DNA of 64,000 nucleotides. Origin: Hyphomicrobiales bacterium (GTDB lineage: Bacteria; Pseudomonadota; Alphaproteobacteria; Rhizobiales; Rhizobiaceae). Shown here piece after piece: positions 26,813 through 29,249 of this stretch. Below the pieces are notes generated by a model. The model made no database searches and had not been told where the DNA came from. It worked only from the letters and a program-made list of their open reading frames with translations. Both the position numbers and the translations under genes were made by a program. Position 1 is the first letter of the stretch, and each line of letters begins with the position of its first letter. The DNA lies in assembly GCA_900472785.1 (NCBI GenBank), contig UCJH01000024.1:67449-131448 (forward strand). The letters are read 5' to 3'.

Positions 26813-26845
26813 GGCCTCTCCCTTCGCAAAGGGGGAGGCTTTTTC
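26813..26845 (+). terminator. Rho-independent terminator
   Basis: GCCTCTCCC pairs with GGGGGAGGC around TTCGCAAA and is followed by TTTTT. It ends the small secreted protein gene and stands right at the 3' end of the convergent ribE gene. Confidence 0.85.
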
Positions 26846-27467
26846 ATGCAGCAGGCTTGGGCGCCGGAAATTCCGCAAGCCGGGCGGCATATCGCGCCAT
26901 CGTATCGACCTCGAAATTGACGAAGTCGCCGGCCTGTCGCTGCCCCCAGGTGGTCACTTCGAGGGAGTGGCGGATCAGGAGCACGTCGAAATCCGCGCCG
27001 TTGACGGCATTGACGGTCAGCGATGTACCATCCAGTGCCACGGAGCCTTTGGGCGCCACGAATTTCGCCAGATGCTCCGGCGCACGCAGGCGGAAGCGGG
27101 TTGCCTCGCCTTCGGATTCAACCGAAAGAATCTCGGCCTTGCCGTCGACATGGCCGGACACCAGATGGCCGCCGAGTTCGTCGCCGATCTTCAGGGAGCG
27201 CTCCAGATTGATCCTCCGATTGGCCTTCCAATCGGAAATCGTCGTCAGCCGCAAGGCCTCTTCCCAGGCTTCGACCTCGAACCAGCGCTGGTTCGAGCCC
27301 TGTTCCGGCAAGGTCGTTACTGTCAGGCAGACCCCGGAACAGGCAATCGAAGCGCCGATGTCGATACCATCCGGCTCATAGGCCGTGGCGATCCGCAGCT
27401 TGACGCCCTCGTCAAGCGGAGTCAGCGTTTCGACGGTGCCGATATCGGTAATAATGCCGGTAAACAT
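26844..27467 (-). CDS. ribE: Riboflavin synthase alpha chain
   Basis: Dismutates two lumazines to riboflavin. The 207 residues show the two homologous barrels of the family. The first begins MFTGIITDIGTVETL with IACSGVCLTV. The second carries GHLVSGHVDGKAEIL and APKGSVALDGTSLTVN. The ATG at 27467 overlaps the ribD stop codon, indicating coupling. Confidence 0.95.
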   Translation of the reverse strand: MFTGIITDIGTVETLTPLDEGVKLRIATAYEPDGIDIGASIACSGVCLTVTTLPEQGSNQRWFEVEAWEEALRLTTISDWKANRRINLERSLKIGDELGGHLVSGHVDGKAEILSVESEGEATRFRLRAPEHLAKFVAPKGSVALDGTSLTVNAVNGADFDVLLIRHSLEVTTWGQRQAGDFVNFEVDTMARYAARLAEFPAPKPAA

Positions 27468-28774
27468 CAAATGTCTCTTTCGTAATTCTCGCAAATATCC
27501 GCACCGAAGCGACGCGTTTCCACCAGTGTGAAGCCGGCGGGGATGGATCGCGTATCAAATGGGGATGCGATGCCGCTTTCGCCAAGGGTGCCCGCGCCGC
27601 GAAATAGCAAAATCCGGTCTACAAGTCCGGCATCCAGAAAAGACCGCGCCGTTCTTGCACCGCCCTCGACCACAAGCGAGGACACGCCGCGGGTGGCAAG
27701 TGCCGTCAAAAGGTCGTCGAGCCTGGCTGAATCGCAATCGAGAATTTCAACCCCTGCCGCTTCGAGGGCTTCGCGGCGGCCAACCGCGGGAACCGTTAGT
27801 TCGGAGCGTCGGGCAGGCTTCCCCCCCTCTGTCCTGTCGGACATCTCCCCCTCAAGGGGGGAGATCGCTGGAGACGCATGCTCCGGAATTCCAGACTCGG
27901 TAAGGGAGGCAGAGATGTCTCGGTCAATCTCCCCCCTTGAGGGGGAGATGTCCCGGAGGGACAGAGGGGGGTAAATGTCGGCACTCTCCGCCCCTTTCAA
28001 ATCCGTCACCGCAATCACCGGCACATCGCGGGCGGTCTTCACCAGCTTCGATGAAAGCGGTAGTTCCAGCCTGCGGTCGAGCACGATGCGGATCGGGGAT
28101 TGGTCCTCAAGCCCCTCGATGCGGCTGGTCAATTCGGGATCGTCGGCAAGTGCCGTACCGATGCCGACAAGGATCGCATCGGTGCGGGCGCGCAGGCGGT
28201 GGACCTCGTCGCGCGCCTCTGCACCTGTGATGCGCACCTGCCCTTCCCCCAGGCGGCCAATCATGCCGTCGGCGGAAACCGCAAGTTTCAGAGTCACATG
28301 CGGGCGCTTGCTGCGCTGGCGCATCAGATAGGCTTCGAGCGCCCGCTCGCCTTCGCGCGTCAGGACGCCCAGCGTCACCTCGATGCCGGCCTCGCGCAGG
28401 ATGGCCACGCCATTGCCGGATACCCGCTCGTCCGGGTCGAGCACGGAAACAACCACCCGGCCGATCTCAGACGCAATCAGCGCCTCGGCACAGGGCGGCG
28501 TCTTTCCATGATGCGAACACGGCTCGAGCGTCACATAGGCGGTGGCGCCTCTCGCCTTTTCGCCGGCAATCTTCAGTGCCTGCGTTTCGGCATGCGGACG
28601 TCCGCCGATTGCCGTCACGGCACTGCCGACGATGACCGGACCGGCGCCATCATTGCGGACGATGACGCAGCCGACAGAGGGATTGGTGGAGGTCTGGCCG
28701 AGATGCAAATAGGACAGGCGGATCGCCTCTTCCATAAAGCGCGCATCCTCGTTACGCATGTCATGGGACTTCAT
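27467..28774 (-). CDS. ribD: Bifunctional riboflavin biosynthesis deaminase/reductase, carrying an in-frame RIME insertion
   Basis: Performs the deamination and ring-side-chain reduction steps of riboflavin synthesis. The N-terminal zinc deaminase (residues about 10-150) has HAETQAL and PCSHHGKTPPCAEAL. The C-terminal reductase has KLAVSADGMIG and VEGGARTARSFL. At 435 residues it is about 50 longer than usual. The excess (residues about 268-318, DISPSRGEIDRDIS to SPLEGEMSDRTEGG) is encoded by a RIME-like palindromic repeat that leaves the frame open. The insertion lies in the reductase domain between VIAVTDLKG and RREALEAAGVEIL, probably a surface loop. The ATG at 28774 is 1 nt past the nrdR stop. 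Confidence 0.93.
   Translation of the reverse strand: MKSHDMRNEDARFMEEAIRLSYLHLGQTSTNPSVGCVIVRNDGAGPVIVGSAVTAIGGRPHAETQALKIAGEKARGATAYVTLEPCSHHGKTPPCAEALIASEIGRVVVSVLDPDERVSGNGVAILREAGIEVTLGVLTREGERALEAYLMRQRSKRPHVTLKLAVSADGMIGRLGEGQVRITGAEARDEVHRLRARTDAILVGIGTALADDPELTSRIEGLEDQSPIRIVLDRRLELPLSSKLVKTARDVPVIAVTDLKGAESADIYPPLSLRDISPSRGEIDRDISASLTESGIPEHASPAISPLEGEMSDRTEGGKPARRSELTVPAVGRREALEAAGVEILDCDSARLDDLLTALATRGVSSLVVEGGARTARSFLDAGLVDRILLFRGAGTLGESGIASPFDTRSIPAGFTLVETRRFGADICENYERDI
27821..27971. repeat. RIME-like palindromic repeat inside ribD
   Basis: Two inverted arms of about 45 bp (27821-27865 and 27927-27971) flank a 61-bp centre. Each arm contains GGACATCTCCCCCTCAAGGG followed by GGGAGAT, the sequence of rhizobial intergenic mosaic elements (RIME). 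The arms differ by only a few bases. Such elements are normally intergenic; here the element is translated. Confidence 0.85.
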
Positions 28775-28775
28775 G

Positions 28776-29249
28776 TCAGACGCCCGGGTCGCGGGCAATC
28801 TTGGCGCTGATCTCGGCGATCACCTTCTCGAAATCCTCCGCATGGGAAAATTCGCGGTAAACCGAGGCGTAGCGCACGAAGGCGACGTCATCGAGACCCT
28901 TCAAGGCTTCCAGCACCTGCAGGCCGATCTCTTCCGAAGGGATTTCCGTCTCGCCGGAACTTTCCAGGCGACGGACAATGCCGGAGACGGCGCGCTCGAT
29001 ACGGTCGCGTTCGACGGGCCGCTTGCGCAACGCGATCTCGAACGATCGCGACAGCTTGTCGCGATCGAACGGGACCTTGCGGCCGGTCTTCTTCATGATC
29101 ATCAGTTCGCGCAACTGCACCCGTTCGAACGTCGTGAAGCGGCCGCCGCAATCCGGGCAGATGCGCCGGCGGCGGATGGAGGAGCCGTCCTCTGCCGGAC
29201 GGCTGTCCTTCACCTGGCTGTCTTCAGAACTGCAGTAAGGGCAGCGCAT
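28776..29249 (-). CDS. nrdR: Transcriptional repressor NrdR
   Basis: Represses ribonucleotide reductase genes in response to ATP/dATP. The 157 residues begin with the zinc ribbon [17 protein letters not shown], completed by [14 protein letters not shown] (Cys 3, 6, 31, 34). The ATP-cone domain follows ([20 protein letters not shown] to about residue 140). It lies between glyA and ribD, the order typical for alphaproteobacteria. Confidence 0.95.

Follow-up and report, generated by a model that had tools for sequence, protein, structure and literature searches.

How does an enzyme of the vitamin B2 pathway come to carry a palindromic DNA repeat inside its coding sequence, and what allows the protein to withstand it? 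The ribD gene of this Hyphomicrobiales bacterium poses this question. In the window (the whole stretch of 64,000 nucleotides analysed here) it lies between two open reading frames, one on each side: 26844-27494, which we take to be of the ribE type, and 28776-29249, presumably of the nrdR type. Pfam recognises both halves of the enzyme (RibD_C, 1.4e-36; dCMP_cyt_deam_1, 2.5e-15), and conserved RibD columns are intact, for example H61, E63, C86 and C95. By TIGR00326 match this is the only full-length ribD in the window's genome, and RibD is probably essential in this strain.

An earlier note, made from the letters of the sequence, had placed an insert at 27821-27971 in the reductase domain and credited it with about 50 in-frame residues. 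The insert is real, and those limits are right to a few bases (Table 1): a profile derived from 15 of the repeat's other copies in the window's genome, with ribD excluded, recovers it on both strands by nhmmer (E 2e-34 minus, 2e-30 plus) and has no second match anywhere in the 64-kb window. The ribD frame stays open across the whole repeat, which encodes the 51-residue peptide YPPLSLRDISPSRGEIDRDISASLTESGIPEHASPAISPLEGEMSDRTEGG within the reductase domain. The element is 156-163 nt long; its outer and inner arms are nested round a 41-nt centre, and one inner arm (27839..27875) contains a small palindrome. The terminal inverted repeats that define a MITE are present as the 16-nt outer arms; a target-site duplication is not clear by eye at the window's junctions.

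Table 1. Coordinates of the ribD locus, its repeat, and two further proteins that carry the repeat.
Feature	Position	Strand	Description and support
ribD	27467..28774	minus	435 aa, deaminase + reductase with translated repeat; ORF, Pfam and TIGR00326
Palindromic repeat	27816..27978	minus	Extent by profile; nhmmer and DNA copies elsewhere in the genome
Outer arm pair	27819..27834 / 27959..27974		16 nt, 94% complementary
Inner arm pair	27839..27875 / 27917..27953		37 nt, 89% complementary
Translated part of repeat	27821..27973	minus	RibD residues 268-318, YPPLSLRDISPSRGEI...ISPLEGEMSDRTEGG
FtsY-like	L317:1528-3168 (window genome, C43); relatives L379-L402		Repeat ahead of SRP54_N
UvrB	L309:1-2505 (window genome, C129)		Part copy in frame, residues 667-684, after UVR motif

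The same repeat is scattered through the window's genome. BLAST with a 231-base stretch returns 88 matching pieces there, two of them at ribD itself, and the stretches fetched around these matches hold the repeat at 40 places, ribD counted. These copies confirm that it is a dispersed palindromic repeat, with the multiple copies per genome that characterise palindromes of the RPE kind. Within the Rhizobiaceae it is matched in 79 of 151 genomes and 64 of 109 genera, and we know of no name for it; the only Rfam models that respond to the repeat are miRNA models, far below their cut-offs. Eight copies stand at contig ends of the window's assembly (L305, L307, L308, L314, L320, L322, L323 and L337), as does a ninth, short piece, so the copy number in this assembly is probably undercounted; runs of N interrupt three of the copies. 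At first look, two genomes of genus g51 hold the most repeat candidates among the genomes listed (198 in G075, 180 in G166). RibD suggests a single universal reading frame for the repeat, a notion contradicted by the own-genome copies, ribD included, in which the three arm frames are open at similar rates (A in 9 of 28, C in 12 of 27, B in 8 of 33), and by an FtsY-like protein whose left arm is read mostly in another frame.

The label RIME (rhizobial intergenic mosaic element), under which the insert was originally described, is not supported. Osteras et al. reportedly defined RIMEs in 1995 in an essential two-component system, a locus that we take to be chvI-chvG, beside pckA. RIME1 is said to be ~108 bp long, with two large palindromes side by side, and RIME2 is reportedly the 109-bp element of S. 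meliloti chvI-chvG. PMC3687685 places pckA next to chvI in S. meliloti. The pckA-side regions of 33 Ensifer genomes were fetched via PF01293 (one region is just 770 bases), and chvI-like (regulator-like) and chvG-like (kinase-like) frames were recognised by short motifs. Between these two genes, loci L349 and L365 hold a two-palindrome repeat of 104-105 nt, with a second copy of the 104-nt repeat in L365; at E 1e-3 it matches 10 of the 33 loci, and in 8 of these the match is longer than 70 nt. The best blastn match between this repeat and the window element is 8 nt (E 0.26), and the window-repeat profile finds nothing in the 33 pckA-side loci; for RIME2 this covers Ensifer loci that may or may not include S. 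meliloti. Because the window element matches none of the chvI-chvG repeat loci, it is not RIME1; it also differs in architecture and size, with nested arms over 156-163 nt instead of side-by-side palindromes over 104-105 nt.

Comparison with the ribD of close relatives, which had been proposed as a check, reveals both presence and absence of the repeat. G001 and G017, the nearest relatives of the window in our sample, have a syntenic ribD without it: the window DNA is colinear with G001 on both sides of a break at 27782-28000, where G001 has 37 nt, and with G017 on both sides of a break at 27779-28014, where G017 has 45 nt. The window's loop is 108 residues long; in 62 relatives from three genera it measures 38-60 (median 44), a count restricted to loops of fewer than 63 residues with no profile match, so that a few that are longer, partly deleted or unclassified are missing from it. 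Relative to G001 the net gain is 60 residues, of which the repeat itself makes up 51. Within the window's genus, the ribD of two of 26 genomes (the window and G013) contains the repeat; 24 are without it, including three with a frame-broken ribD (G015, G017 and G018). The feared outcome, the same ancient insert in all relatives, is thus not what the genus presents. We regard it as likely, with a probability of roughly 0.85, that a MITE-like palindrome was inserted into ribD in this strain's lineage, is translated, and is tolerated in a loop.

The position of the insert in the enzyme is consistent with such tolerance. The proposed modelling of the loop yields a confident enzyme (AlphaFold with 51 aligned sequences, mean pLDDT 86.5, pTM 0.84) in which residues 271-318, between strand 253-257 and helix 330-339, fall below pLDDT 50. 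The insert is probably a disordered loop outside an otherwise confidently predicted RibD fold. In a profile alignment, the insertion point falls between PTWIFTT and EEKKKRLSAFG of RibD chain 2b3z. A short, non-autonomous, MITE-like repeat that is dispersed in many Rhizobiaceae would have entered ribD in the strain's lineage, to be translated in frame as ~51 additional residues. It would survive because it sits in the reductase-domain loop after the strand and before the helix, where length varies anyway and extra chain could remain disordered and clear of the folded enzyme. The repeat would be fit as a protein passenger because its G+C-rich arms are poor in stops and its peptides polar. The loop would act as a sieve: in the window line, G013 and Rhizobium it is the one place in the enzyme where this repeat is found, and in Ensifer it is where an unrelated repeat sits. 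We infer that the repeat transposed, that the whole insert is translated in the cell, that it is near-neutral, and that the insert-bearing RibD is enzymatically active.

Occupation of this loop recurs across genera. Our RibD set comprises 236 frames that reduce to 208 distinct sequences, 28 being merged as identical in their last 330 residues. Into it went 61 of 80 named loci; a further 90 Rhizobium loci were fetched, partly selected for carrying inserts, and in a search of 148 Rhizobium-genus genomes with insert-bearing RibD, 56 matched through the insert unbroken (hand count). Carriers are over-represented in the set, since loci had been ranked by their resemblance to queries with an insert, and broken genes are under-seen because sequences were gathered as open frames; frame-broken genes were left broken and their open piece alone used. 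The profile matches 60 of the 208 distinct loops at E <1e-3, with E-values that refer to the small loop set: 46 of 75 in Rhizobium, 12 of 57 among the named genomes, 2 of 26 in the window's genus, and none of 25 in each of the Ensifer and family sets. A wider scan, which begins 780 nt ahead of the loop and runs through to the gene's end, matches 61 of 208, always in the loop, and no profile match falls outside it. Among named genomes, several Rhizobium species show a like peptide motif at this loop, and Ensifer sp. IC3342 shows a different one there.

That second motif belongs to another repeat. The Ensifer-type repeat occupies the same loop in 14 of the 208 RibD sequences, sequences being assigned to this class by a peptide pattern and a minimum loop length of 64 residues, so that L187, shorter with a like motif, counts as empty. 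These inserts have no significant match to the window-repeat profile, and for their own repeat the lower bounds are 38-57 matches in each of five Ensifer genomes and 5 in the window's genome. Since the Ensifer inserts match a genome-wide repeat of their own, the loop holds at least two repeat families, and the presence of relatives' repeats, another family included, marks it as a place that tolerates foreign sequence. Some Rhizobium inserts (L074, L096, L264, L265 and L075) contain extra segments, RGRATGLDPSF and GEARAGEAGAIDPV, as if other repeats had landed inside the repeat. The contig of a metagenome RibD, L109, ends inside the loop at PPSVLPD, with a profile match that is not significant (E 1); assembly perhaps stopped there at a repeat.

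Descent from one ancient insertion in an ancestor of these genera, inherited by the window, G013 and Rhizobium and lost in frame elsewhere, is the strongest competitor and an unlikely one. In its favour, the RibD copies share loop, orientation and reading frame (L262 apart), arm-specific differences are common to Rhizobium species, and partial in-frame deletions of the repeat (L246, L247, L266, L268 and L271), together with short loops ending like its 3' end, suggest losses within Rhizobium. These short loops contain CAGAGGGGGG (L276, L089 and L273) or GAGGGGGG (L278), and are possibly remnants of the repeat or, alternatively, an old empty site; they score weakly against the profile (E 0.04 or more where listed), and TCAGAGG also stands to the left of the insert in L231, which argues against treating them as established deletion scars. 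Between Rhizobium species, the same-arm distance is smaller than the arm distance within a copy in 7 of 7 bins (0.229 vs 0.233 in the closest) and smaller than the cross-arm distance in 6 of 7, a pattern that fits vertical descent. Concerted evolution of the two arms was considered and set aside, as the arm distance within a copy is about that of the cross-arm distance between species.

Gene trees and copy affinities argue against a common origin of the window and G013 insertions. In a RibD tree of 107 of the 208 sequences (22 Rhizobium carriers picked at random), with loop columns removed, the window groups with G001 and G017 (support 99) and G013 adjoins 18 empty relatives, so that an ancient insertion requires many losses. 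L132 was removed from the alignment because of a stop. On a second tree of 34 rows (L044 and L045 excluded), an AU test rejects a clade of the window and G013 RibD (p 2.7e-31). Not being sisters, the two ribD genes probably received the repeat independently, as the fit of the window's copy to repeats of its own genome also suggests: it scores 113 bits against the window-genome profile, compared with at most 91 on either strand for Rhizobium ribD copies and 57 for G013. The nearest relatives, G001 and G017, have no profile match in the loop, which also speaks against inheritance from a distant ancestor. Within Rhizobium the RibD trees are poorly resolved, and gains and losses there are left uncounted.

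Insertion in the strain's own lineage leaves room for the insert to have been favoured by selection, as a spacer, as an mRNA hairpin that slows the ribosome between folding units, or as an interaction segment, so that recurrence would reflect a gained function. Two repeat families in one loop across several genera, and carriage by many Rhizobium species, are compatible with this. So is a dN/dS of 0.58 in the insert, obtained from 447 non-independent pairs drawn from 57 sequences, whose loops come in 23 lengths, with a rougher alignment in the insert than elsewhere; a value below 1 allows some constraint, through function or through avoidance of harmful peptides. In the remaining RibD, however, dN/dS is 0.13 at equal pS (0.296 and 0.292), an amino-acid change some four times slower, and the loops range from 75 to 147 residues with some copies partly deleted. 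In L262 (Rhizobium) the reading even leaves the usual frame for part of the repeat and then returns, and the gene is still open. The Rhizobium inserts evolve as coding sequence, and of a weakly constrained kind; selection for a function is a shade less probable than the ancient insertion. Bypass or removal of the insert at the RNA level is disfavoured, indirectly, by the frame being kept through all 23 lengths.

A preferred DNA target in ribD, as opposed to tolerance by the protein, would account for all insertions falling inside one short loop, yet it is very improbable: two families with no detectable similarity use the loop, its flanking DNA differs among lineages, and the repeat's PP lies at varying distances from the conserved TAR/SAR motif (14, 22 and 24 residues in L250, the window and L238, respectively). 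An assembly artefact, a worry voiced at the outset and invited by a fragmented assembly with copies at contig ends or interrupted by runs of N, or a pseudogene, is the least likely reading of all, given that the insert lies in the interior of a contig of 242,839 bases and has syntenic flanks, the frame is fully open with its conserved columns, and other assemblies show this loop occupied as well.

The insertion in RibD is one case of a wider pattern, which emerges from the genome search for coding-frame copies that the earlier note had proposed. Screening of the 40 own-genome places identifies Pfam-supported in-frame copies in the FtsY-like protein and UvrB besides RibD, and in these three the repeat is in frame in conserved genes, with orthologues that lack it seen for RibD and the FtsY-like protein, as for palindromes of the RPE kind. 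The FtsY-like protein of the window's genome (SRP54_N and SRP54 GTPase domains) has the repeat at residues 158-207, before SRP54_N. Of the 26 genomes of the genus, 22 have one or two repeat stretches in an intact frame of this protein; G001 is without the repeat, and in G015, G017 and G019 the frame is broken and the repeat lies close by. Also in the window's genome, a copy that includes an assembly gap lies in a di-haem peroxidase frame, and another precedes the domain of a GMC oxidoreductase frame, perhaps ahead of the true start. Among relatives, the repeat occurs in the di-haem peroxidase of six fetched genomes (loci L052, L053, L058, L063, L064 and L070) and in CobN of G018 and, as a protein-level match only, G019 (loci L059 and L061, the latter at protein level), in each case toward the N-terminal part; found with a query in RibD's frame, these further proteins are not an unbiased sample.

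We consider it rather unlikely, by a hair less so than the ancient insertion, that the RibD strand-helix loop and the FtsY region before SRP54_N form a family-wide gateway through which unrelated palindromes become protein, some of the inserts later being kept by selection. Protein-coding palindromes are best known from intracellular bacteria. If the gateway exists, dispersed repeats would time and again supply the core enzymes of free-living bacteria with new disordered segments. RibD and FtsY-like proteins in many Rhizobiaceae, with partial deletions and a second family at the RibD loop, provide dozens of natural replicates in which the tolerance of core enzymes to insertions, and whether inserts are neutral or recruited, can be tested directly. 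They also carry a warning for annotation, as ISPSRGE or ISPLEGEM peptides in rhizobial proteins can derive from repeats.

The insert had been introduced as a type rarely described for rhizobia. As a statement about the literature this may stand, since translated rhizobial inserts seem little described: among the papers listed, titles and abstract openings yielded no translated palindrome of rhizobia, and a search with words for the repeat's sequence gave no rhizobial title among the matches listed. As a statement about genomes it fails, with inserts in 60 of 208 RibD sequences, in the FtsY-like protein of 22 of 26 genomes, and in further proteins. RIME1 and RIME2 are reportedly, like the window element, palindromic dispersed repeats of Rhizobiaceae; the window-type repeat differs in lying inside genes as well. 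In-frame palindromes are described for Rickettsia, Wolbachia, enterobacteria and Neisseria in PMC2573895, PMC2229807, PMC10969869, PMC3733652, PMC3687685, PMC4550343, PMC1273637 and PMC2759123. ERIC/RU-1, RU-2, RU-3 and Correia elements (portions of PMC2759123 and PMC2229807) are, as here, small non-autonomous repeats whose frames fuse with genes, but they belong to other taxa, and repeated landing in one enzyme loop was not found reported in those portions. Closest by description are RPE and their Wolbachia counterparts, which extracts of PMC2229807 and PMC10969869 present as palindromic dispersed repeats of 100-160 bp, many RPE being in frame inside conserved genes with the insert apparently tolerated; the host group of the window differs in its larger genomes and in holding two families in one enzyme loop. 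Translated palindromes are a known kind; new here are the repeat family and its striking recurrence in a single loop of RibD.
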